Positions 1 through 38,807 are shown, counted from the stretch's first letter. The stretch is 39,805 nt of DNA from a virus (IMGVR_UViG_3300043331_001695:1-39805); one strand, 5' to 3'. Notes: generated by a model not told the origin, from the sequence alone. Translations and numbers: made by a program.

Positions 1-47
1 GTGCCCTCTTAAGGCAACGGTTCGGGGTTCGAGTCCCTGGCGGCGCA
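1..47 (+). tRNA. tRNA-Lys(CTT), 3' part only
   Basis: The window opens inside a tRNA gene. Bases 2-5 pair with 13-16 as the anticodon stem; the 7-base loop 6-12 has T33 and the anticodon CTT at 8-10 (lysine, codon AAG). The T arm follows (stem 23-27 with 35-39, loop TTCGAGT) and the 3' acceptor strand GCGGCGC is at 40-46, discriminator A at 47. The next bases are CCC, so CCA is not encoded. The 5' half lies outside the window. tRNA 3' ends are common integration sites for actinobacterial phages and conjugative elements, so this may be one attachment boundary. Confidence 0.85.
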
Positions 48-431: not shown

Positions 432-617
432 TCAGGCCGCGAGCAGCTCCACGACTCCGCATGCACAGAAACGGAAGGGCGGCAACGGCCCGTCCTGTGT
501 GCCGATGCCGCTGGCTTCGGACCAGGCGTGCGGCTCGCCAGGGTGGTCGACGATCTGCTGCTGGACGAATCCGTCGGCGATCACCAGCGTCCCGTCCTTC
601 ACCGTCCAGAAGTTCAT
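432..617 (-). CDS. hypothetical protein, 61 aa
   Basis: Last gene of the leftmost minus-strand operon. The product starts MNFWTVKDG and has an FRFCACG motif near the C-terminus (two Cys) but no complete zinc site. The GGAG upstream of the ATG is about 16 bases away, a weak position, so translation may depend on the gene ending at 645. No family recognised; coding is supported mainly by operon position and amino-acid composition. Confidence 0.5.
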   Translation of the reverse strand: MNFWTVKDGTLVIADGFVQQQIVDHPGEPHAWSEASGIGTQDGPLPPFRFCACGVVELLAA

Positions 618-644
618 GGGGGCATCCTATCTCCGGAGGGGGTG

Positions 645-809
645 TCAGCGCCGTCGGGGCCGGCCGGCAGGTTCCAGGAGCCGGAGCCGGCAGAACAGCT
701 GCGCGGCCCGCTCCAGCCACTCCCCCTCCGTGACGTGGCCGGCCAGGCGCCCCTGGTTCAGCCGGTCGATCTCGCGCTCGAGGTGGTCGAGGCGTTGGCC
801 GTGGGTCAC
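645..809 (-). CDS. small acidic/basic helical protein, 54 aa
   Basis: I place the start at the GTG whose GTGA overlaps the stop of the preceding gene, because residues upstream in this frame look like a shadow. The product has a helical section (DHLEREIDRLNQGRL) followed by EGEWLERAAQLFCRLRLLEP and an Arg tail, suggesting a short coiled coil. No known family. The 4-base overlap implies translational coupling to the gene at 806-1027. Confidence 0.5.
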   Translation of the reverse strand: MTHGQRLDHLEREIDRLNQGRLAGHVTEGEWLERAAQLFCRLRLLEPAGRPRRR

Positions 810-1027
810 GAGCTCGGCTCGGGGAGCTGGAGGCCGATGCGGGTCTTGGCCGGCAACCGGTCGCAGGCGATCCGCATCCCCAGCTGCAGGGGGAGCTCGG
901 CGGTGACGATCCACAGGTGCCGGCCGGCCACGGGATCCCAGCCGTCGTACACGCATTCGAGGGGCAGGGTGCGGCCGTCGGGGTAGATGACGCGCACGTT
1001 CGTTGGCGGCTCGGGGCTGGTGGTCAT
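806..1027 (-). CDS. hypothetical protein, 73 aa
   Basis: Starts MTTSPEPPTNVRVIYPDGR and looks like one small beta-rich domain (VRVIYPDGRTLPLECVYDGW, then RHLWIVTAELPL). The ATG is joined by an ATGA overlap to the stop of the upstream gene, which is why I prefer it to an in-frame start 39 bases earlier. No family recognised. Confidence 0.6.
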   Translation of the reverse strand: MTTSPEPPTNVRVIYPDGRTLPLECVYDGWDPVAGRHLWIVTAELPLQLGMRIACDRLPAKTRIGLQLPEPSS

Positions 1028-1290
1028 GGGAGCCACCAGCTGGCCAACACGATTAGCAGCGCCCACACCACCAGGACGCCGACACCGACGGCGGCGAGTT
1101 CAGCCCACCCCGGCCACGGCGCCACGTCAGCGGGGGCGGGGGCGCGGCGGAGGTGGCGGGCCCAGGTGGTGTCGAGGCAGTCCTCGGTGCAGAACTCCCC
1201 CGCCGGCGTCCTGATCACCGGCCGGCCGGTGGTGGCGAACAGACAGGCGCAGCCTGCGCACACCCGCACCTGGTCGGCTGGCCAGATCAC
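1024..1290 (-). CDS. zinc-ribbon plus C-terminal membrane anchor protein
   Basis: 88 residues, GTG start joined as GTGA to the upstream gene's stop. The N-terminal half has CAGC and later FCTEDC, giving paired cysteines about 20 residues apart that could hold zinc. The C-terminal 25 residues (from WAELAAVGVGVLVVW) form one transmembrane helix ending WWLP. It would be a tail-anchored protein with a cytoplasmic zinc ribbon. Function unknown. Confidence 0.6.
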   Translation of the reverse strand: MIWPADQVRVCAGCACLFATTGRPVIRTPAGEFCTEDCLDTTWARHLRRAPAPADVAPWPGWAELAAVGVGVLVVWALLIVLASWWLP

Positions 1291-1589
1291 CGGCCACCCC
1301 CACGCTCAGGGCTGGGGATGCGGAGCTGCTCGCGGACCTCGTCCAACGTCCCGATCGCCCGCTGCAACGCCGCCATGGCCTCACCGGCCAAGTCCTGATC
1401 ATGGGCGTGCCAGCCGGCCTGCAAGACCGGCACCGCCCGCTCCAGCGCCGCCGTGGCGAGCCGCCGGGCCAGCTCGGGCGACATCAGCAGCAGATGCCCA
1501 GCCGCCGGCCCATCAGGGTCGTCGGGCAGGTCCAGCAGCCCCTCGGCGGCGGCCACGATGGCGGCGTCGAGGGTCGGGTCAGCGGCCAC
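1287..1589 (-). CDS. hypothetical helical protein, 100 aa
   Basis: GTG start preceded by a good GGGAGGTGA ribosome site. The product is mostly helical, with acidic segments (GLLDLPDDPDGP) and Ala/Leu-rich helices (ARRLATAALERAVPVL). No catalytic motif or membrane segment is visible. It overlaps the gene upstream by 11 bases and the gene downstream by 4. Confidence 0.6.
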   Translation of the reverse strand: MAADPTLDAAIVAAAEGLLDLPDDPDGPAAGHLLLMSPELARRLATAALERAVPVLQAGWHAHDQDLAGEAMAALQRAIGTLDEVREQLRIPSPERGGGR

Positions 1590-1956
1590 CAGTCACCTCC
1601 CGATGTCGGTGGGGGGACCGGTTGGGGGCGGCGGCGTCGCGAACCACGCAGGAGTGGTCACCGTCGCCCCCGGGCCGGCTGGTGATGCTGGAGGGCGGTG
1701 CCTGCGTCACGCCGAGCAGGGTCGACGCCACCCCCCTCCAGCTCTGACGGGCTCGGAGATGCTGGGGCTCGCACGACCGCGGCCGCGGGCCGCCAAGCGC
1801 CGCCACGCGGCGGGTCTGTTCGCGTCGCTCGAGGGCGTTGGCGAGCGCCGGGATGGCCAGCAGCAGCACTGCGGCCACGCCGGCCAAGATGAGGGAGGGC
1901 GCCGGGCCTGCTGTCGTGGCCCAGGGCGCCGTGGCTATGATGCCCACGTCGGTCAC
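1579..1956 (-). CDS. single-span membrane protein, 125 aa
   Basis: The GTG start at 1956 (VTDVGIIATAPW) follows AGGAAG. One transmembrane helix is visible at about residues 19-37 (LILAGVAAVLLLAIPAL), followed by a positively charged segment (LERREQTRRV) and a long polar tail, so the bulk is probably cytoplasmic. The frame is open further upstream but that part reads like a shadow. A strong hairpin (1981-2016) lies just before the ribosome site. Confidence 0.5.
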   Translation of the reverse strand: MTDVGIIATAPWATTAGPAPSLILAGVAAVLLLAIPALANALERREQTRRVAALGGPRPRSCEPQHLRARQSWRGVASTLLGVTQAPPSSITSRPGGDGDHSCVVRDAAAPNRSPHRHREVTGGR

Positions 1957-1980
1957 CTTCCTGTGTAGGTGGCCGGCACA

Positions 1981-2016
1981 GGCCCCAGGCCAGAGGTCGC
2001 GACTCTGCCTGGGGCC
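1981..2016 (-). terminator. long GC-rich hairpin between two operon genes
   Basis: Left arm 1981-1995 pairs with right arm 2003-2016 with one bulged base and a 7-base loop. It lies about 150 bases after the stop at 2169 and 25 bases before the GTG at 1956. There is no T tract on the minus strand, so it could be a terminator-like structure, an RNA end protector or a translational control element. The rest of the 212-base gap shows nothing I can identify. Confidence 0.45.
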
Positions 2017-2168
2017 GCCCATCTCCTGTCGCGAAGGGTCCGGGCGGTCCGGCCAAGGTTCCGGCGCCTGTTCTACCTTGTTCGGCTGTCGTGCGCCAGT
2101 CGCCCGATGTGCGGGTGTTGGGTGGGCCGAGCAGCCTACGGTGCCCGCCAGACTGCCCGGCCCTGGGT

Positions 2169-2672
2169 TCATCCGCCCGTGGCCAGCCGGACCACGGACT
2201 TGTGGCCGTCGGGGAACCGGATCACGAACACCGCGCGGGTGTCGTCGACCCCGCGGCCGGCGGGGCGCCAGCGGCCCCGGACGACCAGCCGCTTGCGCTT
2301 GCCGGCCTTGGCGAGCCCACGGCCTGCCTTGTGGAGCCCGATGGCGAACCGCATCGTCCGCCGCCCCTGGGCGTTGTACCCGGCGACCGCTGCGGCGGGC
2401 TGGACCCACCAGCGGCCCCCGACCTTGCGGGCCCGCAGCGTCACGCAGTACTGCGCGCCCCAGAGCAGGTGCTCGGTGTGCCGGCAGTTGAGCCCGACCC
2501 GCTGGACGGGGACGACCGGCTGGTAGGCCGGCACTGTGAGCCGCATGGCCTGGACGGTGGTCCGCGCCTCCGCCTGGCTGCGGGCAGTCACGAGGCCGCC
2601 GGCGACCGCCAGCGCCAGCCCGGCCGCGACGGCTGCCCGCAGCGCCCAGCGCATCCTCGTCGGGGTCAGCAT
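2169..2672 (-). CDS. secreted or membrane-anchored protein, 167 aa
   Basis: ATG start with GAGG five bases upstream, overlapping the previous stop by 7 bases. Residues 1-8 are basic and residues 9-27 hydrophobic (ALRAAVAAGLALAVAGGLV), a signal peptide or N-terminal anchor. The exported part is basic and beta-rich, with two Cys (LNCRHTEHL and YCVTLRARK) that could form a disulfide. It sits beside another predicted exported protein, so the two may act together at the cell surface. No family recognised. Confidence 0.6.
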   Translation of the reverse strand: MLTPTRMRWALRAAVAAGLALAVAGGLVTARSQAEARTTVQAMRLTVPAYQPVVPVQRVGLNCRHTEHLLWGAQYCVTLRARKVGGRWWVQPAAAVAGYNAQGRRTMRFAIGLHKAGRGLAKAGKRKRLVVRGRWRPAGRGVDDTRAVFVIRFPDGHKSVVRLATGG

Positions 2673-3589
2673 CCCGACCTCGGGTTCCCCCACGGAGCCC
2701 GCTGCCCCCGGCGGATCACGTAGGAGTCGAGGCAGCGCTGGCCGGTGGAGCGGCCGGTGACATAGCTCACGTTCACCTTCGCACTCACGGTGGCCAGGTC
2801 CTCGACCGGATGCCAGCCACCGACCTTGTAGACGGTTGGGCCGTCGTCGGTGGCCACGGTCGTCGGCCCCCACCGGCCCGGCGAGGCGGTCACCACGACC
2901 TGGGAGAAGATCGCCACGATCGGGCGGCCGTCACCGGAGCACTTCCCCCACCACCGGTACCAGCCATCGCTGGGGCGCCGCTGCAGCCCCAGCGAGCAGT
3001 TGGTGGTCGCGCCGACCTGCTTGGTGTGGCGGCCGAACAGCTCATAGCCACCCGGCTGGCTCTTGGACACGTAGGACGGTGCGGTGTCGTGGGTCTGGAC
3101 GCTCACCACCGCACGCTGGTCGCGTGGGGCCGCGTCGGCCGGGCGGACCACCGCCAGGGCGATCACCACGGCCAGGGCGAGGGCGGCCGCCGCCACGGCC
3201 ACCACCCGCCAACGGAAACGGGGACGGGACAGGACCATCCTGCTGCTCCTTCCAGTCGGGCCAGGCGGCGGACTGGCAGGAAGCCGGCCGGCCCGCAGAC
3301 GGGTCCAGCCGACGATCGCCCAGGTCAGGGCGAACAACTTGACGTTGGAGATCCAGCGCCCCTGATGGCGGGCCGAGATCCGGTCATGCGCGGGCCAGCA
3401 CAGCGAGACCAGCTCCCACGGGGCCTCGACCCCGAAGGTCCGCCACCCGGCATAGGAACTGTGATGGACCGTCTGGGCCCGGCAGCCACGGCGGCGACCG
3501 TGGGCCAGGCACCAGGGATGCGCAGCCAGGTGCCGACGGCGGCGCTCAGCCCAGACCGGGCCGAGGATGTACTCCTGGTAGGCGGTCAA
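2666..3589 (-). CDS. HNH-like domain fused to a membrane-anchored exported domain
   Basis: One open frame of 307 codons holding two different parts. Residues 1-80 look like an HNH nuclease zinc fold: C27, C36, the H42-H43 pair, then LVSLCWPAHD with C64 and H68; the usual CxxCH is CxxxH here. After a Pro/Gly-rich linker comes MVLSRPRFRW and a hydrophobic helix at about 126-145 (signal anchor), then about 160 exported residues with several Cys. A strong ribosome site precedes the internal Met118, so the C-terminal part may be made alone (2666-3238, 190 aa). The upstream start is TTG within a TTGA overlap. The HNH assignment is moderate. Confidence 0.6.
   Translation of the reverse strand: MTAYQEYILGPVWAERRRRHLAAHPWCLAHGRRRGCRAQTVHHSSYAGWRTFGVEAPWELVSLCWPAHDRISARHQGRWISNVKLFALTWAIVGWTRLRAGRLPASPPPGPTGRSSRMVLSRPRFRWRVVAVAAAALALAVVIALAVVRPADAAPRDQRAVVSVQTHDTAPSYVSKSQPGGYELFGRHTKQVGATTNCSLGLQRRPSDGWYRWWGKCSGDGRPIVAIFSQVVVTASPGRWGPTTVATDDGPTVYKVGGWHPVEDLATVSAKVNVSYVTGRSTGQRCLDSYVIRRGQRAPWGNPRSGC
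3239..3256 (-). promoter_or_regulatory. internal ribosome site for the exported domain
   Basis: On the minus strand GGAAGGAG lies about 7 bases before the in-frame ATG at 3238, better than the TTG start of the whole frame. It suggests the exported half of the HNH fusion is, or once was, a separate gene. Confidence 0.45.
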
Positions 3590-3831
3590 TCCCAGCCCGC
3601 CTGCTTGCCGCGAGTCCAGATCGCCGCCTCGGCGGACTGCTCACCGCGGCTCTCCCACTCGATGGCTTCAGCGGCGCGGTAGTCGCGCTTCCACTCCTCC
3701 TCCACCTGGAGGCCTTGGTGGCAGGCGTCGCCCTGGAGGTGGTCGAAATCGGGGTTGAGCGTGTTGAAAGTGCCGCCGTCGTAGCCGTCGCGGTCGGTGT
3801 AGTCGGGCCAGGTACCCGACTCCGCGCTCAC
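3586..3831 (-). CDS. hypothetical acidic protein, 81 aa
   Basis: I choose the GTG at 3831, which gives a GTGA overlap with the upstream stop; an in-frame GTG at 3840 is the alternative. The product is Trp/Tyr/Asp-rich (TWPDYTDRDGYDGGTFNTLN) with EEEWKRDYRAAEAIEWES near the C-terminus. No Cys pair or membrane segment. It resembles the next gene upstream in style (aromatic, acidic), but I see no clear repeat between them. Confidence 0.55.
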   Translation of the reverse strand: MSAESGTWPDYTDRDGYDGGTFNTLNPDFDHLQGDACHQGLQVEEEWKRDYRAAEAIEWESRGEQSAEAAIWTRGKQAGWD

Positions 3832-4076
3832 TGCAGCCACCCGCCCTGGTCGGCCTCAGCGAAGGTCTCGCAGCCCGCCTCCGCCGCCGCGCGCCAGCCC
3901 TCCGGGACGGCGGCGCCGTCGCCACGGGCCTCGTTGTGGGCAATCGCCCGCTCCAACTCGCTCAGGTCGTCGCGGCCCCAGAGCCGATCCGACCAGCGGT
4001 CGAAAGACTGGACCCAGCCCCACTGCGGGCCCTCGCCGGCGTCGTTGCCCAGCAGGCCATCACGCAGCCAGCTCAC
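3828..4076 (-). CDS. hypothetical acidic protein, 82 aa
   Basis: The start at 4076 makes a GTGA overlap with the stop of the gene above; an in-frame GTG at 4085 is also possible. The product begins VSWLRDGLLGND, has many Trp and acidic residues (WGWVQSFDRWSDRLWGRDDL) and a helical middle (LSELERAIAHNEARG). Unknown family. Its place between small operon genes linked to an FtsK-like ATPase suggests an accessory role. Confidence 0.55.
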   Translation of the reverse strand: MSWLRDGLLGNDAGEGPQWGWVQSFDRWSDRLWGRDDLSELERAIAHNEARGDGAAVPEGWRAAAEAGCETFAEADQGGWLQ

Positions 4077-4231
4077 GTCAGCCACCCCTCATCCGGTCGC
4101 CCCAGCTCCTCGGCGTCGGCCCTCAACAGGTCGAGGAGGCCTTGGTCGTCGGTGCCGGTGTAGGCCTTCATCGTCTCGACCAGGTCGGCCTGCTCGTCGC
4201 CGGACAGGTCCTCCCAGCGCAGCTCGCTCAC
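4073..4231 (-). CDS. small acidic protein, 52 aa
   Basis: Short frame from the GTG at 4231 to the TGA at 4073, with 4-base GTGA overlaps at both ends. The product (VSELRWEDLSGDEQADLVET at its start) is strongly acidic and helical, ending GRPDEGWLT. Codon use has high GC in the third position, unlike the alternative frames. Function unknown. Confidence 0.5.
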   Translation of the reverse strand: MSELRWEDLSGDEQADLVETMKAYTGTDDQGLLDLLRADAEELGRPDEGWLT

Positions 4232-4389
4232 GAGCCCTCACCACCCCAGGGGTTCGGGATGTTCGGATCGCAGTGCCACTGATCCGCGTGGTAGACCCCG
4301 CACACCCCACAGCGGGTGCCAGACTCGAACTCGAACACGGCCTCCAGCGGCTGCTGCTCGTCGGTGAAGTTGTCCTCGAAGGCGCTCAT
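4228..4389 (-). CDS. small zinc-binding protein, 53 aa
   Basis: ATG with AAGGAG 8 bases upstream. The product starts MSAFEDNFTDEQQPLE and carries CGVCGVYHADQWHC, that is C-x2-C-x3-H-x5-C, a likely single zinc knuckle. The acidic N-terminus and zinc site suggest protein or nucleic-acid contact. Linked by ATGA to the membrane protein gene upstream and GTGA to the gene downstream. Confidence 0.6.
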   Translation of the reverse strand: MSAFEDNFTDEQQPLEAVFEFESGTRCGVCGVYHADQWHCDPNIPNPWGGEGS

Positions 4390-4646
4390 CGGTGCTCCTT
4401 GCTGGCCGGCTTCGAGCCCGTCTTGGGCTTTTTCCCGGCCGTCTTGGTGGCCCCCTTGGGCCGGTCGCAGTGGCCCACCCCGGTCACCGCCGCCGTCCGC
4501 CCACACACCGGCCCGTGGCTGTTCGCCTCCACGAAATTGCTCAGCGCGACCAGCAACCCACCCACGATCAGCACGTACAGGGCCGCCTGCAGCGGGTGCC
4601 GGAAGATGTTCGCGAGGTTGCTGGCCAGGGGGCCGAGGACGTCCAC
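4386..4646 (-). CDS. single-span membrane protein with basic tail
   Basis: 86 residues from a GTG at 4646. One transmembrane helix at about residues 20-38 (AALYVLIVGGLLVALSNF), two Cys after it, then a Lys/Gly-rich tail ending KTGSKPASKEHR. Four bases separate it from the membrane gene upstream. Small membrane proteins after an FtsK/Tra-type gene recall the Spd spread proteins of Streptomyces elements, but only by context. Confidence 0.6.
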   Translation of the reverse strand: MDVLGPLASNLANIFRHPLQAALYVLIVGGLLVALSNFVEANSHGPVCGRTAAVTGVGHCDRPKGATKTAGKKPKTGSKPASKEHR

Positions 4647-4650
4647 GGGG

Positions 4651-4947
4651 CTACTTCCCGCCCTTGGACAGCACCCAGGCGAGCACGCTGGCCACCCAGC
4701 CAAGGCCGAAGTCAGTGACCCCATTGGCCATGCTGGCGAACTCCTTCGGCGCCCCCGTATGGGCCCCGGCGGCGGTCTTGCCGAGGGTGAACGCCAGCAT
4801 CAGCCCCAGCACGATCTGGACCTTGTTCCAGGTCTTCAGCGGCGGCCCCGACGACAGGAACCGCCAGAAGATCGGCGCCGCGATGGCCGCCGCAGCGAGC
4901 AGCACCAGGGTGCTGGCAGCGGCGTGGGCAGAGTTGGGTGAGAGCAC
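4651..4947 (-). CDS. three-helix small membrane protein
   Basis: 98 residues; GTG start 7 bases after AAAGGAGG, the best ribosome site in this operon. Hydrophobic segments at about 11-30 (STLVLLAAAAIAAPIFWRFL), 42-60 (KVQIVLGLMLAFTLGKT) and 78-94 (DFGLGWVASVLAWVLSK). The size and layout suit a small pore, pilin-like or Spd-like protein. It lies after a structured RNA region and the FtsK-like gene. Confidence 0.65.
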   Translation of the reverse strand: MLSPNSAHAAASTLVLLAAAAIAAPIFWRFLSSGPPLKTWNKVQIVLGLMLAFTLGKTAAGAHTGAPKEFASMANGVTDFGLGWVASVLAWVLSKGGK

Positions 4948-4959
4948 GATGGCCTCCTT

Positions 4960-5130
4960 TCAGGCCAGAGGTGAGACGGCCGGCGCTCGCACTCCCTCGC
5001 CGGTGGTGGCGGTACGGCGGGCACGGCCCGAACGGTCCCGTCCCCGCGGAGCGGGGCGGGTGGGCTCCCTCGCCGGCGCCCGAGCGGTAGCGACAGGCGC
5101 CGGCGAGGGAGTGCGAGGAGCGAGGACCAT
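4960..5130 (-). CDS. Arg/Pro-rich 56-aa frame coupled to the translocase gene
   Basis: The ATG overlaps the FtsK-like gene's stop as TGATG, and the frame ends just before the ribosome site of the next gene. The product is basic and low in complexity (RTPSPAPVATARAPAREPTR), with no domain. The DNA beneath carries a triplicated repeat that can form alternative hairpins, so the frame may be real, or may be passing over an RNA structure. Confidence 0.35.
   Translation of the reverse strand: MVLAPRTPSPAPVATARAPAREPTRPAPRGRDRSGRARRTATTGEGVRAPAVSPLA
4986..5117 (-). repeat. triplicated repeat able to form two exclusive hairpins
   Basis: Copy C (5096-5117) is complementary both to copy B (5065-5080, 16 bp perfect, 15-base loop) and to copy A (4986-5003, 18 bp perfect with 5100-5117). 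In the minus-strand RNA the order is C, B, A, so C can pair with either. A further 6-bp hairpin lies between (5042-5056). The structure sits between the FtsK-like gene and the ribosome site of the membrane gene at 4947. Confidence 0.6.
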
Positions 5131-5984
5131 CAGGGGACGCTCCGTGGGCTGCCAGCCCGAAACGGGGCCGGGTCGACCCAATACAGCTGGGTTGGCTCGG
5201 TGAAGCCCCGCGGGCCGACCAGCCCCCGCCCCTTGATCGGGGGGAGGCTGGCGGCGGCTGGGTCATCCAGGACGGCCGGGCCGGCCGCGGTCTGGGTGAC
5301 GCGGTAGTGGATCCGGAAGTCGCTGGACACCTTGATGGCGGTGGTGACGACGTCGACCGAGGGGTACTGGGTCGAGAGCACGATGTGGCCGCCGGCGGCG
5401 CGGTCCTTCTGGGCGGCCAGGCGCAGGTTGCGGGCGTTGCGCTGGCGGGCCTGGTTTTCTTCCCAGTCGTCGGAGCCGCGCTCCAGCCCGGCCTCCTTGA
5501 AGGTGACGTCGGCGAGCTCGTCGACCAGGAGCCCGAGGCGGCCCTCGTGCTGGATGATGTGGTTGATGTCCTCGCCGGCGTAGTCGCGTTCGAAGCGGTG
5601 CTCGACCTCGCGGCGGAAGCTGGCGATGGCCCGTTCGATGTCGCCGGGGAGCACGCACAGCTCGACCCCGGGAGGGGCCTGGAAGCGGAGGGCCTTGAAG
5701 TCGACCATCTTGGGGTCGCAGACCCAGATGCGGGAGAAGACGCCGGAGCGGACCCAGTGGTGGTAGATGCCGTAGAGGGTGATGGTCTTGCCGGCGCCGG
5801 GGGTGCCAGCGACGAGCGCGTTGGGCTGCTCGTCCATGGGCCAGTAGCGGACCAGGCCACCCTCTGGGTCCTCGCCGAGGGGGGCGCGGTGGGGCTGGCC
5901 GGTGTGGTCGTAGCGGGCCGGGTAGGGGAGCTTGTTGGGGTCCCGGAGCCCGAACGCGACGCGGAGGAGCTGGCCCACGTTCAC
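5130..5984 (-). CDS. FtsK/SpoIIIE (TraSA-like) DNA translocase
   Basis: A 284-residue ATPase of the FtsK/SpoIIIE/Tra motor family, which pumps double-stranded DNA. Walker A GTPGAGKT at 60-67, Walker B LLVDE at 152-156, and the family's HIVLSTQYPS motif at 200-209. It lacks the long membrane N-terminus of cellular FtsK and the gamma domain, so it is close in size to the short Tra proteins of actinomycete integrative conjugative elements. The preceding gene encodes a membrane-anchored protein that could tether it, and small membrane genes follow. GTG start within a GTGA overlap. Transfer, segregation or packaging-related roles are all possible; transfer is my preferred guess from context. Confidence 0.85.
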   Translation of the reverse strand: MNVGQLLRVAFGLRDPNKLPYPARYDHTGQPHRAPLGEDPEGGLVRYWPMDEQPNALVAGTPGAGKTITLYGIYHHWVRSGVFSRIWVCDPKMVDFKALRFQAPPGVELCVLPGDIERAIASFRREVEHRFERDYAGEDINHIIQHEGRLGLLVDELADVTFKEAGLERGSDDWEENQARQRNARNLRLAAQKDRAAGGHIVLSTQYPSVDVVTTAIKVSSDFRIHYRVTQTAAGPAVLDDPAAASLPPIKGRGLVGPRGFTEPTQLYWVDPAPFRAGSPRSVP

Positions 5985-6403
5985 CCCAGCCCCTCGTGGT
6001 CACGGGCTGGCCAGGTGTCGGTGCTGGCGGTCGTTCCCCCCACCATGGCTTCGCGGGCGACGATTGCGCCGCCGGCGGCGACGGCGTCGGCGAGGAGGCC
6101 GCGGGCGGCCCGGCAGCTGGTCTCCTCGCAGCGGGTGGCGGGGCGGTCGGGGCCGTGCTGGTGCAGCTCCCAGGCGGCGACGAGGTGGTCGACGAGGCCG
6201 TCGAGGCGCTGCTCCAGCTGGCTGGCCATGGTGACGTCGCCCCTTCGCTGCAGCTGGAACGGCTGGAGCCGTTGCAGGACGGTGCGTGGCGCGGTGGGAG
6301 GTGGGGTGGGCTGCGTGGAACGGTTGGGGAGCAGGGACGGCGCGGCCGCGACGATGGCGGCCCCCAGGGCCAGGAAGAGCAGGGGCAGAAGGGGCGAGTC
6401 CAT
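5981..6403 (-). CDS. N-terminally membrane-anchored protein, 140 aa
   Basis: ATG with GAGG about 11 bases upstream. Residues 3-21 are hydrophobic (SPLLPLLFLALGAAIVAAA), followed by a Pro/Thr-rich linker and a helical domain (ASQLEQRLDGLVDHLVAAWE) with one Cys pair (RCEETSC). The GTGA overlap with the FtsK-like gene suggests the two proteins work together, perhaps as membrane tether and motor. No family recognised. Confidence 0.6.
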   Translation of the reverse strand: MDSPLLPLLFLALGAAIVAAAPSLLPNRSTQPTPPPTAPRTVLQRLQPFQLQRRGDVTMASQLEQRLDGLVDHLVAAWELHQHGPDRPATRCEETSCRAARGLLADAVAAGGAIVAREAMVGGTTASTDTWPARDHEGLG

Positions 6404-6405
6404 GA

Positions 6406-6474
6406 CTACTGGACCTCGTCGAGGACGGTCGGCCAGCCCGGAGCCGGCGCGGTGGCGGTGAGGGGCCAGGTCAC
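6406..6474 (-). CDS. 22-codon linking mini-ORF
   Basis: From a GTG that forms GTGA with the stop of the gene at 6471 to a TAG two bases before the next ATG (6403). It fills the intergenic gap exactly and keeps high third-position GC (WPLTATAPAPGWPTVLDE). It could be a real microprotein, or a reading frame that keeps ribosomes moving to the next gene. Confidence 0.3.
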   Translation of the reverse strand: MTWPLTATAPAPGWPTVLDEVQ

Positions 6475-6590
6475 CTGCGGCTCCAGGGCATGACGGGGCT
6501 GACGGCGGCGTGGCCGAGGCAGTCGGTGAGGCCAGGGTGGCGGGGGCCGCTGCAGCCAGGCCGCGAGCAGGTGGGGGGACGCCGTCGCAT
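6471..6590 (-). CDS. 39-aa zinc-knuckle protein
   Basis: Starts MRRRPPTCSRPGCSG and contains CSRPGC and DCLGH, a C-x4-C-x10-C-x2-H arrangement that could bind one zinc. The ATG lies two bases after the stop of the gene at 6593, so translation is probably coupled. Such small basic zinc knuckles are typical of plasmid and phage operons; no function can be given. Confidence 0.45.
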   Translation of the reverse strand: MRRRPPTCSRPGCSGPRHPGLTDCLGHAAVSPVMPWSRR

Positions 6591-6592
6591 GG

Positions 6593-6748
6593 CTACGCCT
6601 TCTTGAGGGTGTAGCCGAGGGTGTCGGCGGCGAAGCGGACGACGCGTTCGCGGACGTCGTCGGGGAGCTTGGCCAGGCCGTCGATGAGCTGGCCGGCGGT
6701 GGGGGTGCTGGTGGACTCGGCACCCGCGGCGGTGGGATCGTCGTACAT
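6593..6748 (-). CDS. small helical protein, 51 aa
   Basis: ATG with GGGAGG about 9 bases upstream. After an unstructured Thr/Ser/Pro start (MYDDPTAAGAESTSTPTAG) comes a helical part, LIDGLAKLPDDVRERVVRFA, ending LGYTLKKA. No known domain. It lies between the RHH-like regulator and the FtsK module and is probably on the same transcript. Confidence 0.55.
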   Translation of the reverse strand: MYDDPTAAGAESTSTPTAGQLIDGLAKLPDDVRERVVRFAADTLGYTLKKA

Positions 6749-6825
6749 AGCCCATGGCCTCCCTACAGGCTCTGGGTTAGGCCTCCGGGGGCTGGTTGGC
6801 GCCGGCCCTCGGGGGTCGCCTCCGG

Positions 6826-7008
6826 TTACTCCACCAGCAGTTGCCGGATGGAGTCGTCGCTCGCCAGCGCGTGCTGGAGGGCGACGGTGACGTACTTGCT
6901 GCGGTCGACGCGGATCCCGGCCCGTCGGAGGTCGAGGATGCGCTGGTCGACGTCATGGACCAGGTCGTGGGGGCAGTAGGCCGCGAGTTTGGTCCGGTCT
7001 GCTGCCAC
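6826..7008 (-). CDS. ribbon-helix-helix-like small regulator
   Basis: 60 residues, first gene of the leftmost operon. GTG start 8 bases after GGAAGGAGG. The sequence fits a short strand with basic residues followed by two helices: VDQRILDLRRAG, then RVDRSKYVTVALQHAL. This resembles RHH DNA-binding proteins of mobile elements, which act as dimers on short repeats and often repress their own operon. A promoter with nested direct and inverted repeats lies just upstream (7050-7090). The family assignment is by pattern only; it could instead be a partition accessory protein. Confidence 0.6.
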   Translation of the reverse strand: MAADRTKLAAYCPHDLVHDVDQRILDLRRAGIRVDRSKYVTVALQHALASDDSIRQLLVE

Positions 7009-7049: not shown

Positions 7050-7078
7050 AGTGTCCTGCTGCTGGACGGTACTGTCAA
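7050..7078 (-). promoter_or_regulatory. promoter for the RHH/FtsK operon
   Basis: On the minus strand TTGACA (7073-7078) is followed after 17 bases by GACACT (7050-7055). The -35 is perfect; the -10 matches TATAAT at three of six positions. It points to the gene starting at 7008. Confidence 0.55.
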
Positions 7079-7090
7079 GCTGCTGGACAC
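7051..7090. promoter_or_regulatory. operator-like repeats over the promoter
   Basis: GCTGCTGGAC occurs at 7058-7067 and 7079-7088, exactly 21 bp (two turns) apart, and GTGTCC (7051-7056) is inverted as GGACAC (7085-7090). The repeats cover the -35 and -10, so a protein bound here would block the promoter. The RHH-like product is the obvious candidate. Confidence 0.5.
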
Positions 7091-7091
7091 C

Positions 7092-7108
7092 TGATCCCGC
7101 CGGAATCA
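7092..7108. repeat. 17-bp palindrome, copy A
   Basis: TGATCCCGCCGGAATCA, one base from the consensus TGATTCCGNCGGAATCA. It lies 14 bp upstream of the -35 of the RHH/FtsK promoter and is the only copy outside a gene. Confidence 0.7.
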
Positions 7109-7125
7109 GCCCCGGGAACGAAGAC

Positions 7126-7171
7126 GCCGCCCCCTCGACCTGGTCCCGGTCCAGCCCAGGGAGGGGGCGGC
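7126..7171 (-). terminator. hairpin after the lysis operon
   Basis: Perfect 11-bp stem, 7126-7136 with 7161-7171, loop 24 bases. It is the second of two hairpins after the stop at 7204. No T tract follows. It separates the late (lysis) operon from the promoter at 7078. Confidence 0.5.
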
Positions 7172-7203: not shown

Positions 7204-7548
7204 CTACGGGGTGTCCGGTGGGGCGTTGTGCAGATGCGTCGCCGGGACCAGCAGCCCGGCGAGGAAGGTGATGATCCCGACCAGCCATGCGGCGGTGGTG
7301 CTGCCGGCGGTGGACTGGACCACCAGCCAGTCCAGCAGCCCCCCGACCAGCACCGCGACCACGCTGAGGAGCTGGGCCTTGTAGGGGTCGGGGATCCGGA
7401 TGGCCGAGGGTGCGACCCAGCCGGCCAGCGCCACCAGGCCGGCGGTGACGAGGGCCTTGGTGTCCTCGGGCAGCCGGCCGTTGACGGTGCCGACGCTGAC
7501 GCCGGTGATGCCGAGGGCGGCCAGCAGCGAGGCGATGCGAGCGTTCAC
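7204..7548 (-). CDS. holin-like membrane protein
   Basis: 114 residues; GTG start 5-6 bases after AGGAGG. Hydrophobic stretches at about 3-22, 34-53 (VTAGLVALAGWVAPSAIRI), 60-79 (LLSVVAVLVGGLLDWLVV) and 86-103 (AAWLVGIITFLAGLLVP), then a short polar tail. It lies directly after the endolysin gene and is the last lysis gene, as expected of a holin, which makes the membrane pores that release or activate endolysin. Assignment is by size, topology and position. Confidence 0.7.
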   Translation of the reverse strand: MNARIASLLAALGITGVSVGTVNGRLPEDTKALVTAGLVALAGWVAPSAIRIPDPYKAQLLSVVAVLVGGLLDWLVVQSTAGSTTAAWLVGIITFLAGLLVPATHLHNAPPDTP

Positions 7549-7556
7549 CTGTCCTC

Positions 7557-8372
7557 CTACGAGGTCGGGTCAGCGATGGGGGCGAGTGGGTTGGCCCGCA
7601 GTGCCTGCAGGATCGACTGTGGGTCGATGGCCACGCCTTGGGTGTCGAGGAGTTCCTTGACCTTGGCGGCCACGGCGTCCTCGTCGACGTCCGGCGGGGG
7701 AAGGGCGGTGAGGGCGCCCAGCACGGCCTCCTTGGAGGCGCCCACGGTCGAGATCGCCGTCTGGACCGCGTTGTAGACCTGGCCGGCCTTGATGTTGACC
7801 TGGTTGAAGGTGGTCTCGATCTTGCGGCGGACCACGGCCAGGTCGCGGTCGATGTTGTCGAAGCGGGCCTTGACGTCGGCGTCCAAGTGGAGCCCTCCTT
7901 GGTCGGCCGCCTCCAGGCGGCGGGTGAGTGCATCGGCGTCCTGGGGGGTCCCGACCCACTCGAAGTGCATCGGGTCCTTGCGGTCCTGGTAGTTACCGCC
8001 CCAGCGGAGCCGGTAGCGGGCAGCGAGGTCGGGCATCCAGGACGGCATGTCGGAGATGAGCCGCTCCGACATGGGGTTGCGGGTGGCGTTGAGGTCGACG
8101 GCGAGGCCCCAGGCGTGATTGCTCATCTTGTCGGGATCCGCCAGGGCCTGAGCCATGGTGTAGCCGCGGATGGGCCGGTAGGCGTGGCCCCAGTCGTCGG
8201 CGACCTGGTCGACGGGGTAGCCCTTGGCCGCCATGGCCTCGATGAACCGGGTGAAGATCAGGGCGACGCGGCGGTGGACGCGGAGGCGGATCCCGGCAGC
8301 CTCGATGGTGACCAGGTCGGGGTGGCCGGGGGGACGAGGCGGGCCCCAGCCGCGCTCTTGGGCGTTGCTCAC
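7557..8372 (-). CDS. endolysin, M15 (VanY-type) peptidase
   Basis: 271 residues. Residues 20-150 form a peptidase M15 domain that cuts peptidoglycan peptides: HAWGLAVD gives H86 and D93, and DPMHFEW gives H136, the three zinc ligands of this family. The VanY/L-alanyl-D-glutamate peptidase group is widely used by phages as endolysin. No signal peptide, so release would need a holin. The C-terminal 120 residues are helical, probably a coiled-coil oligomerisation or wall-binding part. GTG start in a GTGA overlap with the membrane gene upstream. Confidence 0.85.
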   Translation of the reverse strand: MSNAQERGWGPPRPPGHPDLVTIEAAGIRLRVHRRVALIFTRFIEAMAAKGYPVDQVADDWGHAYRPIRGYTMAQALADPDKMSNHAWGLAVDLNATRNPMSERLISDMPSWMPDLAARYRLRWGGNYQDRKDPMHFEWVGTPQDADALTRRLEAADQGGLHLDADVKARFDNIDRDLAVVRRKIETTFNQVNIKAGQVYNAVQTAISTVGASKEAVLGALTALPPPDVDEDAVAAKVKELLDTQGVAIDPQSILQALRANPLAPIADPTS

Positions 8373-9504: not shown

Positions 9505-11118
9505 ATGCGCCCCTTCCGGTTCGAGAGGGGGCTCGTGGCGGCAACATCCCAACCCGCAGACAGGACTGGCCGGTGGCTGCTGGCCGGGGGCGCTCTGGCC
9601 TGCATCGTGGCAGGGGCGGCGGTGACCCTGCCGATGCCGTGGCCGCTGGTCCTGATCGGCCTGGTGGGGACTGGGGTGCTGGGCGCCGCAGCGGCGCGGC
9701 GGTTGGCCTTGACGCGGGAGCTGGCGGCCAGGCGGCTGCTGTGGCTTGGCCTGCTCGTGCCGTTTGTCTGGGCCCAGCCAAAGACGCACGAGCAGGTCAG
9801 CGCAGGTGGCGCGCTGTCCCTGCTCGACCTCGTCCGCGGGGGTGGCGGCCTGGCCTGCCTGCTGCTGGCCGTGCTGCTGCAGCGGCCACCGGGCCGGCTT
9901 CGCTTGGGTGGCCTGACGGTGGGGCTGATCGTCTACCTTGGGACGGCCTCAGCCAGCACCCTGTGGTCGGTCAACCCGAACGCCACAGTACTGAAGGCGG
10001 CCGTGCTGGTCGTGGCCTACCTGACCCTGCTGTTGCTGGTCAGCTCCTACCTCAGCTTCGAGCAGGCCATCTCGGCGTTGGCCATGTTCGTCCACGGGGT
10101 GCTCCTGAGCCTGCCCGTGCAGCTGCTCATCGTGCCGTCGGTGGCCTACCACGCGACCGCGCTGCCACGGTTGCAGAGCGCGGTGCCCTACATCCATGCC
10201 AACCTGCTGGCCCTCGTCGCCGTCGTCGGCATCCTCGCGCTGCTGCTGCGGCTGGGACCGCGGTGGATCCTGCGGGCGCGACCAGCACTGTTGGTGCTGT
10301 ATGCCGCCGAGCTCCTGGCCACCCGGGCACGGTCGGCAGCGTTCGTTGGGCTGCTGATCGTCGTTGTGGTCGCTGGCCGAGCGGCCGCCAGGAGCCGCCC
10401 GGTGGCCGCAGCGTGCTGCTTGACCGCCGCGGCCGCACTGGCCGGGATGCTGTTGCTGGTCAACCTCGGCGGCAGCGACGATGCCACCGGGTTTGTGCGT
10501 CGCGGGCAGGACGATCAGGGAATCGCGACGCTCACCGGGCGGACGCTGGTGTGGGAACGGTCCTTGGACGTCTGGAAGGATCACCAGCTGTTGGGGACGG
10601 GCTATTACAGCGGCCATCGGCTCGGGCTGGTCCCCTACCTGCATGGCATCGGGGACGACCGCGCGAACTTGGATTCGACCTGGGTGGAGAGCCTGGTCGA
10701 CGTGGGCATCCTGGGCACCGCCGGGCTGGCAGCGTTTGTGCTGGCCGGGCTGGCCCGGTTGGCCCGTCAGCCTTCCAGCCCGGCGCGGACCCTGGCCGGC
10801 TGTGTGGCCGTGCTGGGCGTGGCGATGTCTTTGGTGAACTCTTCTCTGCAGCATCCCAATTCCACGATGGTGCTGTTGGGGTTCGTGCTGTGCGCCGGGA
10901 GCACGCTGCCGGCGACGACAGAACCAACCCCAGCGGGACTAGGCGGCGCGCAGCAGCGCCCGGACCGCCTGGGTGGCGGCGGTCACGGTGCCAGTGAACG
11001 TGCTCGGGAGCGCCCCCGACACGCTGGTCTGGGAGTAGCCGGCCCACAGGGCCTGGGCCAGGGTGGTGACCCCGATCCCGATCCCAAGCGCCGAGCCGGT
11101 GGAGACATGCACCACTGA
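9505..11118 (+). CDS. O-antigen ligase/polymerase-like (Wzy/WaaL) membrane protein
   Basis: 537 codons, plus strand, with GGGAG just before the ATG. About eleven hydrophobic helices span residues 20-460. A large loop precedes GTGYYSGHRLG and then DSTWVESLVDVGILGTAG, the typical end of the Wzy_C (O-antigen ligase) domain. Such proteins join or polymerise surface glycans. Its place between lysis genes and tailspike, against the direction of the phage genes, marks it as cargo that could alter the host surface after lysogeny. The last 60 residues read antisense through the tailspike gene and are low in complexity, so the original C-terminus was probably near codon 475. Confidence 0.8.
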   Translation: MRPFRFERGLVAATSQPADRTGRWLLAGGALACIVAGAAVTLPMPWPLVLIGLVGTGVLGAAAARRLALTRELAARRLLWLGLLVPFVWAQPKTHEQVSAGGALSLLDLVRGGGGLACLLLAVLLQRPPGRLRLGGLTVGLIVYLGTASASTLWSVNPNATVLKAAVLVVAYLTLLLLVSSYLSFEQAISALAMFVHGVLLSLPVQLLIVPSVAYHATALPRLQSAVPYIHANLLALVAVVGILALLLRLGPRWILRARPALLVLYAAELLATRARSAAFVGLLIVVVVAGRAAARSRPVAAACCLTAAAALAGMLLLVNLGGSDDATGFVRRGQDDQGIATLTGRTLVWERSLDVWKDHQLLGTGYYSGHRLGLVPYLHGIGDDRANLDSTWVESLVDVGILGTAGLAAFVLAGLARLARQPSSPARTLAGCVAVLGVAMSLVNSSLQHPNSTMVLLGFVLCAGSTLPATTEPTPAGLGGAQQRPDRLGGGGHGASERARERPRHAGLGVAGPQGLGQGGDPDPDPKRRAGGDMHH

Positions 11119-22240: not shown

Positions 22241-22906
22241 TCAGGCCTCCGTGCGGGCCTTGATCCGCTCCCGCAGCTCGCTGGCGGTCCCTGAGGGGTC
22301 GAGGCCGAGCTGCTCGGCCAGGGCGGCCAGCTCCTCCTTTTTGCGGGGCAGTGACGCGCCTTCGGGGAGGACCAGGGCGGCGGCGTCGTTGGGGTCGTCG
22401 CCGGCCAGGATCCGCTGGGCCGCGTCGGTCTCGCGGCGCTCCTGGGTCTCCAGGGCCTCGGCCTGCTCGGCCTCCACCTGCTCGGTGTGCTCGGGGTCCG
22501 CCGGATCCAGGTCGCCGCGGGGGGCGACGGCCCCGGGGAGGATCGGCCCGGGCGGCACCCCATGCAGCCCGGGGGCGACGACCTCCGGGCCGTGGGGGTC
22601 GAGGCCCTGGCCGGCCCCGACGGGGGGCAGGTAGGCGTCGCTGTTCGGCCCCGCCGCCTGCTTGCCGAGCACGGCCGCGTCCCGGCTGGCGGGCGCGCGG
22701 CCGCCGGGGCCGCCGTCGGGGTGTACCGAGGCCGGGACCCGCTCGGGCCCCTTGCCACCCTGGGTCACCTCGTAGCCGGTCTGGCGGAAGTAGGCCAGCG
22801 CGCCGGGGGCCAGCTCCGCCGCGTAGCCGACACCCTGCTCGAAGACGACCCCGCAGCTCGTGCCGGTGTAGTCGCCCTGCGGCGCCCGGACCGTCCAGCC
22901 CGCCAT
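22241..22906 (-). CDS. head protein with C-terminal HeH/SAP-like motif
   Basis: 221 residues, ATG in a TGATG overlap with the major capsid stop. Residues 1-50 look like a small beta domain (QGDYTGTSCGVVFEQGVGYA), the middle is Pro/Gly-rich, and the last 35 residues (KEELAALAEQLGLDPSGTAS and RERIKA) form a helix-extended loop-helix as in phage HeH/LEM-like proteins, perhaps contacting DNA. Role in the capsid unknown. Confidence 0.6.
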   Translation of the reverse strand: MAGWTVRAPQGDYTGTSCGVVFEQGVGYAAELAPGALAYFRQTGYEVTQGGKGPERVPASVHPDGGPGGRAPASRDAAVLGKQAAGPNSDAYLPPVGAGQGLDPHGPEVVAPGLHGVPPGPILPGAVAPRGDLDPADPEHTEQVEAEQAEALETQERRETDAAQRILAGDDPNDAAALVLPEGASLPRKKEELAALAEQLGLDPSGTASELRERIKARTEA

Positions 22907-24072
22907 CAGGCGACCTTGACGTTGGTCAGCTTCGCGGCCGCCTTCGTGGCCTTGAGGGCGATCGCGACCGGGCCCATCTCGACCTCGCCGGTCTTGACCG
23001 CGCCGGCGGTGGTGAAGTCAGGCAGCCACGTGCGGACCAGGGGGCTGTTGACCTCGGCGACGCCGTGGAAGCCGTCCATGCCGAGGCGGACCGCGTAGAT
23101 GTCGGTCAGGCCGGTGACGTTGGTGGTGCCGGCCCCCAGGTCCAGGTCGCGGGTCTCGGTCGGGATGATCCAGGAGCTGGAGCCGGCCTTCTCGCCCAGG
23201 TCGACGAACCGGATGCCGTTGTAGCCGTCGACGCGGCGGCCGAAGGCGTCCTCGGAGGGGGTGAGGTAGCCGGCCCACTTGGCCAGCGCCCGGATCCGGC
23301 CGATGCCCTGGGTGTTGGCGAGGATGAGGACGTTCTCGCGGCTGTCGAGGGCGTCCAGCAGCGCGTCCAGCCACTCCATGGCCGCGAACGCCTCGGCCTG
23401 GGTGTCGATCGTGGCCGAGCGCCAGTCCAGCCCGGCGGTGACGCTGCCGTCGGTGATGCCGAGCTCAGTGGAGGAGCCGACGAGGGCCTTCTTGAGGCCA
23501 TCGAAGCCGTTGGCGTCCACGGCAGTGTCGCCGTTGATGGCGGCGTCGGCGAACTTGGTCCGGGTGGCCTTGACCAGCTCGGCGAGCTGGAAGCTGGTTT
23601 CGGCGGCGGCGCGGCCCAGGCGGTGGGAGACGCGGTCGATCTGGAAGCTGCCGCCCAGCGGCTTGAGCTCGACGGTGTAGCGGGCCTTGGTGACCTCGGT
23701 GGGGGTGTACTCGGCGTTGATCGCGCGGAACGCGGCGGCGCGCTGGCTGGTCTGGCGGGTGTAGCCGTAGATCAGGGTGCCGCCGCCGGTTGGGGAGACG
23801 GCGTCGTCGAAGGTGAGGGCGTCGAGCAGGGCCGAGGACTTGCGGAACTCGTCGATGATGTTGACGTCGATGTCGTCGGTGGCGTTCAGCTTGGCCTGGG
23901 CCAGGGTGACGACCCCGGCCTCGGCGCCGAGGGAGGCGACCGCCAGGCGCAGGCGCTGGTGGAGGCGGTCGGCGAGGCGGGCGGGCGCGGGCGAGCCGAG
24001 GATGGCGGCCAAGAACGAACCAACGAGGACGAGGGCGGCGGCCGAGCCGGCCAGCACCGAGAGCCGAAGCAC
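22906..24072 (-). CDS. major capsid protein, HK97-type
   Basis: 388 residues. From residue 55 on (LAQAKLNATDDIDVNIIDEF) it is a recognisable actinophage capsid protein, with E-loop-like and P-domain regions and the C-terminal VEMGPVAIALKATKAA. Location after the scaffold supports this. Odd: the start with the best ribosome site (AGGAGG 9 bases before GTG 24072) adds about 50 residues containing a strong hydrophobic segment at 5-25, like a signal anchor. No start codon lies close to residue 55. The extension may be a delta-like region removed on maturation, or an annotation trap. Confidence 0.9.
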   Translation of the reverse strand: MLRLSVLAGSAAALVLVGSFLAAILGSPAPARLADRLHQRLRLAVASLGAEAGVVTLAQAKLNATDDIDVNIIDEFRKSSALLDALTFDDAVSPTGGGTLIYGYTRQTSQRAAAFRAINAEYTPTEVTKARYTVELKPLGGSFQIDRVSHRLGRAAAETSFQLAELVKATRTKFADAAINGDTAVDANGFDGLKKALVGSSTELGITDGSVTAGLDWRSATIDTQAEAFAAMEWLDALLDALDSRENVLILANTQGIGRIRALAKWAGYLTPSEDAFGRRVDGYNGIRFVDLGEKAGSSSWIIPTETRDLDLGAGTTNVTGLTDIYAVRLGMDGFHGVAEVNSPLVRTWLPDFTTAGAVKTGEVEMGPVAIALKATKAAAKLTNVKVA

Positions 24073-36636: not shown

Positions 36637-36842
36637 GATGCCCACTCCTCCATCGCAGCCTTGACCGCGTCCTGGCGCTCACGAGTCCCCAGCTGGCCGA
36701 CCGTGGTGTAGATGGCCGCCCTGACCGGCCGGGACAGTTGGAACCAGTGGGTGCGGCAGGCGAACAGCCGTCGTGAGATGCGCTGCTGACAGTCAGGGTG
36801 TGGGCAGGCCGTCGTGTAGCGAGGCTGATCCAGACGGTTCAT
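36633..36842 (-). CDS. small zinc-binding protein, 69 aa
   Basis: CPHPDC and FACRTHWFQL give C-x4-C and C-x2-H, a short zinc finger similar to small proteins found in actinobacterial mobile elements (HW..L....R). The C-terminal helix DAVKAAMEEWAS is acidic. ATGA overlap with the parB-like gene. Confidence 0.65.
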   Translation of the reverse strand: MNRLDQPRYTTACPHPDCQQRISRRLFACRTHWFQLSRPVRAAIYTTVGQLGTRERQDAVKAAMEEWAS

Positions 36843-38407: not shown

Positions 38408-38670
38408 GTGGTGCCTCCGGGGCTGGTCTGGCAGGCGTGGAGGCGGCACCCGCGGCCGCCGTTGAGCGCCGCGATGTACCGGTGGTGGACCTCGACCTGA
38501 GTTCTGGCGGCGGCCAAGTCGGTCTGGACCGCGCGGAGCTCGCCCAGGACCTCCAGGAGGTCGCTGATGGTCTCGTTGAGGACGGCCTTGTTGGGGTCGC
38601 CGGCGAACTGCCGCCGGCGGGCCTCGTAGGTGGCCTGCAGCTCCTGGAGGTTCAGCGTGGTGGTGGTCAT
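38404..38670 (-). CDS. coiled-coil protein, 88 aa
   Basis: Starts MTTTTLNLQELQATYEARRR, followed by heptad-like helices (ETISDLLEVLGELRAVQTDL) and a C-terminus with two Cys (RGCRLHACQ). ATGA overlaps with both neighbours. Perhaps an oligomeric partner of the ParB-like protein; no family recognised. Confidence 0.6.
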   Translation of the reverse strand: MTTTTLNLQELQATYEARRRQFAGDPNKAVLNETISDLLEVLGELRAVQTDLAAARTQVEVHHRYIAALNGGRGCRLHACQTSPGGTT

Positions 38671-38807
38671 GGGGTGGTGGTCTCCTTGGGGACCGGCTGG
38701 TGGTCGCGGTCTCGGGCTGGTTGGCTGTGGATGAGGACGGGCTGGCCGTTGGGGTGCTCGCCCCAGCGGACGACCCGGCCGCCGCAGGTTGCACAGACCC
38801 AGATCAT
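38667..38807 (-). CDS. zinc-ribbon protein, 46 aa
   Basis: Starts MIWVCATCGGRVVRWGEHPN: one C-x2-C knuckle at the N-terminus and a His later (LIHSQ). ATG in an ATGA overlap; further upstream residues in frame look like a shadow. Small phage zinc protein of unknown role. Confidence 0.55.
   Translation of the reverse strand: MIWVCATCGGRVVRWGEHPNGQPVLIHSQPARDRDHQPVPKETTTP

Follow-up and report, generated by a model that had tools for sequence, protein, structure and literature searches.

An FtsK-type motor gene followed by a conserved structured element in an operon of a temperate-looking SV1-like phage

We analyzed a DNA stretch of 39,805 nt, called the window below, which is the IMG/VR virus record IMGVR_UViG_3300043331_001695. 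The record comes from a tailed, SV1/REQ3-like phage, whose major capsid protein (22906-24072) was 47-54% identical to the capsid proteins of SV1, Raleigh and Picard (all Streptomyces phages), REQ3 (Rhodococcus) and GMA1 (Gordonia). The contig genes include terminase, portal, tape measure, endolysin, primase and a ParB-like ORF, and nearly all of them lie on the minus strand. A group of small genes around an FtsK-type ATPase gene is located between the lysis genes and one contig edge. The lysis genes are an M15 endolysin (7557-8372; family profile match) and a holin-like ORF (7204-7548) with four transmembrane (TM) segments by hydropathy. The same order of lysis genes, RHH-like gene, small ORF, Cys-rich ORF, coupled ORF, ATPase gene, structured element, two-TM ORF and one-TM ORF was observed in a related phage contig (IMGVR 3300005985_000039, further called L172). 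Since both order and sequence are kept in L172, we regard the module as above chance. The features are as follows.

1-47, plus strand: 3' half of a tRNA-Lys(CUU) gene, truncated on the 5' side, at the contig edge (Rfam RF00005, 22.5 bits).
4386-4643, minus strand: one-TM membrane protein, 85-86 aa, 60% identical to that of L172, with conserved ANSHGPxCGRTAAVTGVGxCD.
4651-4947, minus strand: small membrane protein, 98 aa, by hydropathy; L172 has an 86-aa two-TM ORF at the corresponding place.
4985-5131, minus strand: conserved structured element of about 147 nt, starting at the ATPase stop codon (fold, covariation, alignment scan). Its parts are a closing helix (5115-5107/4996-4988), a long hairpin (5111-5065) and two further hairpins (5056-5042 and 5011-4998).
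5130-5984, minus strand: motor-only FtsK/TcpA-type ATPase, 284 aa (PHROG, PDB, fold), with a homologue in L172.
5981-6403, minus strand: coupled ORF, 140 aa as annotated, overlapping the ATPase start (GTGA).
6471-6590, minus strand: Cys-rich ORF, 39 aa, 93% identical to that of L172, with low dN/dS.
6593-6748, minus strand: small soluble ORF, 51 aa (52 aa in L172), by ORF call, order in L172 and hydropathy.
6826-7008, minus strand: RHH-like protein, 60 aa, probable autoregulator, 88% identical to that of L172 (weak two-helix model, no family match).
7050-7109, minus strand: putative promoter/operator, read from the sequence and the L172 alignment.
7126-7171, minus strand: G+C-rich hairpin with an 11-bp perfect stem after the holin-like ORF, a terminator-like end of the lysis operon.

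The anticodon loop of the tRNA half at the edge reads CUCUUAA (Lys, CUU). We read bases 1-47 as the putative core of an attachment (att-like) site. The phage appears to integrate at a tRNA gene, and because of this edge it looks temperate. We found no integrase in the contig, which is unfinished at the end opposite to the tRNA edge. An earlier reading of this DNA from sequence only had placed the module between lysis genes and a tRNA end. The endolysin, the holin-like ORF and the tRNA 3' half agree with this, but no whole tRNA is present in the window. Two neighbouring proteins encoded near this edge (2169-3240, minus strand), downstream of an HNH-like ORF, carry hydrophobic, signal-like segments at the N-terminus and reached the cut-off of no family. 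The ParB-like ORF (36839-38794, minus strand; 651 aa) carries a ParB/Spo0J domain (TIGR00180, 126 bits), and no ParA was seen in the contig. A ParA-type partition system was considered and rejected, as there was no ParA match. An O-antigen ligase ORF (9505-11118, plus strand; PF04932 Wzy_C, 48.9 bits against a cut-off of 31.7) lies between the tail fibre and the lysis genes, in opposite orientation to the late genes. In L172 its place is taken by a methyltransferase (PF13489) and another ORF without family; the Wzy_C ORF looks like exchangeable surface-modifying cargo.

The FtsK-type operon looks like a transcription unit of its own after the lysis genes. The hairpin behind the holin-like ORF is modest when taken alone, as a few 11-bp stems arise in shuffles of the window too. 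Upstream of the RHH-like gene we read TTGACA-N17-GACACT at 7078-7050 (TTGACA at 7078-7073, GACACT at 7055-7050), together with an imperfect palindrome at 7091-7109 and a direct repeat, GTCCAGCAGC, at 7088-7079 and 7067-7058. The alignment with L172 gave TTGCAG-N17-TATCGT at a nearly equal place. A promoter before the RHH-like gene, as the sequence-only reading had proposed, is plausible only, as the automatic consensus promoter scan reported no site at its threshold.

The RHH identity of the first ORF, which had been called an RHH regulator, is plausible only. The sequence pattern fits, with a strand (TKITAYLP in L172), a helix and RSKYVTVALQ. In the weak model (pLDDT 69) the two helices were placed correctly, and the strand was modelled as a helix with low confidence. 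The protein had no RHH match in Pfam or NCBIfam and its model had no Foldseek match. Six of the seven changes between the window and L172 fall in residues 8-17, which by analogy with RHH proteins may be the DNA-reading part. Among viral contigs, only L172 was found to carry this protein besides the window. The second-best conserved-structure signal of the alignment scan (6754-6892, minus strand; z -4.35) covers the RHH-like gene at its 3' end together with the spacer that follows.

The ORF at 5130-5984 encodes an FtsK-superfamily ATPase with the motor fold. It scored 102 bits (E 3e-29) against phrog_1358 and 22.1 bits against Pfam PF01580 (FtsK_SpoIIIE), under the cut-off of 24. Sequence matches in the PDB were FtsK (E 9e-12) and, over the full length, TcpA (E 1.6e-6). 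The best Foldseek match of the AlphaFold model (pLDDT 83, pTM 0.84) was TcpA of pCW3 (6o1w, E 1.9e-16, TM 0.72), followed by FtsK; TcpA is the only conjugative FtsK-type motor among the PDB matches and is therefore favoured as the best match. The Walker motifs are intact, the Walker and FtsK motifs are kept in L172 at 54% identity, and the key motor residues are invariant across the relatives. Hydropathy analysis showed no hydrophobic stretch in the window protein or in its L172 homologue. A C-terminal winged helix is absent; the protein ends with the motor fold, and its last 20 residues are disordered in the model. The phrog_1358 score, the virion genes in the same record and the lack of TM segments fit the class of phage FtsK-like translocases that lack the membrane domain.

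The sequence-only reading had named this protein an FtsK/TraSA ATPase. The FtsK-like motor is borne out by fold, phrog_1358 and PDB matches; membership in TraSA/TraB fails. The NCBIfam scores were 38.6 bits for FtsK and 12.8 bits for TraB (NF041214), whose cut-off is 800, and identity with pIJ101 Tra was 25% over 191 aa. In the tree, the window ATPase and its L172 homologue grouped in a separate clade, which lies on the FtsK side and outside TraB (support 90/86). The branches are long, and for this reason the deeper placement of the pair near some actinobacterial plasmid FtsK-type proteins is unsure. We also compared substitution rates with L172 (dN/dS 0.96 for the ATPase, 0.37 for the endolysin, 0.08 for the Cys-rich ORF). 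By this method, which is crude at this G+C content, the ATPase seems to evolve fast relative to the other two.

As regards the other small ORFs, the conserved part of the coupled ORF covers only the C-terminal 80 aa or so, with 36% identity to L172 over the 50 alignable codons. The hydrophobic segments in the ORFs at 4651-4947 and 4386-4643 confirmed the small membrane proteins noted before. None of the small membrane proteins reached the cut-off of Spd or any other family among the Pfam, NCBIfam and PHROG profiles, and the ATPase is not TraB, so the resemblance to tra-spd regions claimed from the sequence could not be confirmed. The one-TM protein was found in no viral contig other than L172. 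The module order was likewise found in no other relative searched, and the window and L172 are its only two known members. About 94 capsid/terminase relatives yielded no FtsK, but many of these are fragments, and this search had no match anywhere else. A genome scan with both ATPases returned only chromosomal-type FtsK from planctomycetes and uncultured bacteria. No relaxase was found among the window proteins scanned, in a contig that is incomplete at one end.

One arm of the structured element occurs three times, in two direct copies and an inverted one, and these copies co-vary. Between the window and L172, blocks of identical DNA are accompanied by arms that vary yet stay paired. The longest perfect stem of the whole window, 16 bp, lies here; 20 shuffles gave no more than 13 bp, and in L172 the stem has 17 bp. 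The fold of each sequence alone was better than those of all 200 shuffles (z -4.2 and -4.5). The consensus structure, derived from the two elements themselves, has 44 pairs formed in both sequences, seven of them with two-sided (compensatory) changes, and no such changes were left after shifting partners by 1-3 columns. Because this structure came from the two compared sequences, we also used a fold made from the window sequence alone. It gave seven pairs changed on both sides and 11 broken ones, and none of 20,000 random placements of the substitutions equalled it on both counts. A sliding scan over the 6 kb alignment gave z -9.7 at the element against a median of -0.36. The co-variation rests on one pair of sequences. 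Among 13 stretches in IMG/VR that share an 18-mer of the element, only the L172 contig carried the element.

The sequence-only reading had suggested a search for clt/TRS-like repeats. The structured element behind the motor gene bears repeats; the general repeat search gave only weak families. Since a triple 10-mer at the element was matched elsewhere in the window and in shuffles, pairing and conservation, not repeats, are the evidence for the element. A protein-coding ORF was rejected: an open frame overlaps the FtsK stop codon in both phages, but its product would be Pro/Ala/Arg-rich and the stems stay paired. The codon-position pattern of this frame was flat, which is indecisive because the FtsK gene is flat as well.

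Our preferred explanation, held tentatively, is that the operon encodes an autoregulated phage DNA-translocase unit which acts on the phage's own DNA at the element. We infer the following course for this accessory operon of a temperate SV1-like phage, placed with its own promoter between lysis genes and attachment site. The RHH-like protein would control the operon promoter, the motor-only ATPase would form a dsDNA translocase, and the small membrane proteins encoded alongside may hold it at the membrane. The repeat-bearing structured element would be the cis site at which the translocase acts on DNA of the phage itself. Such a unit might work like TraB-clt, and its most likely task would be to pump phage or prophage DNA, or to position it, within the host cell. 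TraB recognises the clt/TRS repeats through its C-terminal winged helix. Since the motor described here has no winged helix, reading of the repeats would fall to the RHH-like protein or to the coupled small protein.

Several lines point to a translocase unit. The modelled motor fold is nearest to TcpA and FtsK, which are both DNA translocases. The motor motifs are kept at the divergence seen in L172, and so is the order with the RHH-like and membrane proteins. By analogy, inverted and direct repeats begin at the ATPase stop codon as in the pWTY27 clt (PMC3583192), and a Streptomyces plasmid carries genes for ParA, an RHH-like and an FtsK-type protein and a hairpin in corresponding order. Against it, the motor lacks a DNA-reading domain, the arms of the element can pair alternatively and may act as RNA, and gene neighbourhood alone suggests the membrane docking. 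A role in partition is unsupported, as no ParA was seen.

Two other explanations are, in our opinion, rather unlikely but deserve discussion. The ATPase and the small membrane proteins may be lysogenic-conversion cargo that protects the lysogen, for example by superinfection exclusion or defence against incoming phage DNA. The region between lysis genes and att edge is a usual place of cargo, and the operon is located there. The replacement of the neighbouring surface-modifying moron Wzy_C by a methyltransferase in L172 and the fast divergence of the ATPase relative to the endolysin are consistent with such a role. However, PADLOC gave only weak superfamily matches (mad8, 33 bits; SspH, 22 bits), no nuclease or toxin partner was recognised, and cargo leaves the element unexplained.

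The other explanation, similarly doubtful, gives the element a role as RNA, either regulatory or structural (an attenuator, an I-shaped terminator, a stabiliser of the mRNA or a small RNA), and has the motor serve phage DNA metabolism without a cis site. The latter role is presumed for the motor of Cluster J phages, thought to move along phage DNA (PMC3706429). The strong fold with its compensatory changes and the position between two genes of one operon would suit an RNA, and two downstream copies are alternative partners for the 5' arm, with similar pairing energies. The antisense strand, however, folds as well as the sense strand or better, so that no RNA strand preference is apparent, there is no U-tract at the element and no family for it in Rfam, and the three arms vary in concert, as repeated DNA sites would. 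With alternative pairing and equal antisense folds, the element may act as DNA or as RNA.

True conjugation, in which the operon would pass the phage genome after its excision to other cells as dsDNA, like the TraB plasmids do, seems improbable to us. Among solved structures, the closest one belongs to a conjugation coupling protein, the element has a clt-like place and repeats, and the motor is adjoined by small membrane proteins. The first of these points is weakened by the favoured position of TcpA among the PDB matches. The membrane domain, winged helix and family score of TraB are all missing, the tree places the ATPase outside it, no Spd homologue accompanies it, and no relaxase was seen that would serve a TcpA-type route. 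We give an equally small chance to a tailed temperate phage that would spread not only by virions but also by DNA pumping between cells, for which a regulator, a motor, a clt-like cis site and membrane proteins would form a minimal dsDNA-transfer unit. The sequence-only reading had named close homologues confined to strictly lytic phages with an established non-transfer role as evidence against its interpretation. This was not the case: the sole close homologue is in a contig of a phage similar in kind to that of the window, which looks temperate from its tRNA edge. On the whole, the conjugation-like interpretation of the module is partly supported. A decaying remnant without function is very improbable: the ATPase dN/dS is near 1, but this value is crude at such G+C content, frames and catalytic motifs are kept open and intact despite the divergence, the Cys-rich ORF has a dN/dS of 0.08 and the pairing of the element is preserved.

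If the element were a loading site, the phage would possess a minimal DNA pump made up of a motor and its site; if the element acted as RNA, it would be a structured element absent from Rfam.

We compared the operon with Streptomyces TraB/TraSA and clt systems (pSVH1, pIJ101, pWTY27, pSAM2). They have in common an FtsK-type motor and small membrane proteins nearby, and the tRNA edge resembles that of many AICEs. The clt of pWTY27, with its direct and inverted repeats, extends over the final 16 bp of traA and the 159 bp next to them; clt sites vary among plasmids and share such repeats (PMC3583192). Similarly, the motor gene of the window is followed by about 150 bp of repeat-bearing sequence, from its stop codon on. 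In contrast, the window motor has neither membrane domain nor winged helix, there is no Spd homologue, and the carrier is a tailed phage. TcpA of pCW3 is alike in fold and full-length sequence, but the window ATPase lacks an N-terminal membrane segment, and no relaxase or secretion genes were seen. TcpA has been described as confined to Firmicutes (PMC5357655).

FtsK-like proteins that lack the membrane domain were known from phages before; they occur in many of them, without known transfer role. The FtsK-like protein of Cluster J mycobacteriophages (Omega gp203) is such a motor; its role is unclear (PMC3706429). It differs from the window ATPase in its location in the early region of phages of about 110 kb, in its size (442 aa with a gamma-like domain in phage Pound) and in sequence (28-30% identity). 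Six motor-only FtsK-like ORFs (L190, L208, L209, L212, L217, L231) are closer in design, with a single phage-encoded motor of about 240-290 aa and no TM segment. They differ in neighbourhoods, in tree placement (five of the six form their own clade) and, where checked, in their moderate G+C content, and the element was not seen there. A motor with a conserved structured element behind its gene was not met in our searches, which for the literature covered open-access papers; the combination may have been described earlier elsewhere. Such phage motors are common, yet no function is known among those described (Cluster J, PMC3706429). Here the motor is tied to a conserved element, which makes a DNA target testable with a 150-bp fragment. 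A possible parallel to the window operon is found in the Streptomyces plasmid NZ_CP029542.1, where 477-4600 contains, in order, ParA, an ORF of RHH-like pattern, an FtsK-type ORF that includes TM segments and, behind the latter, a perfect hairpin of 18 bp.
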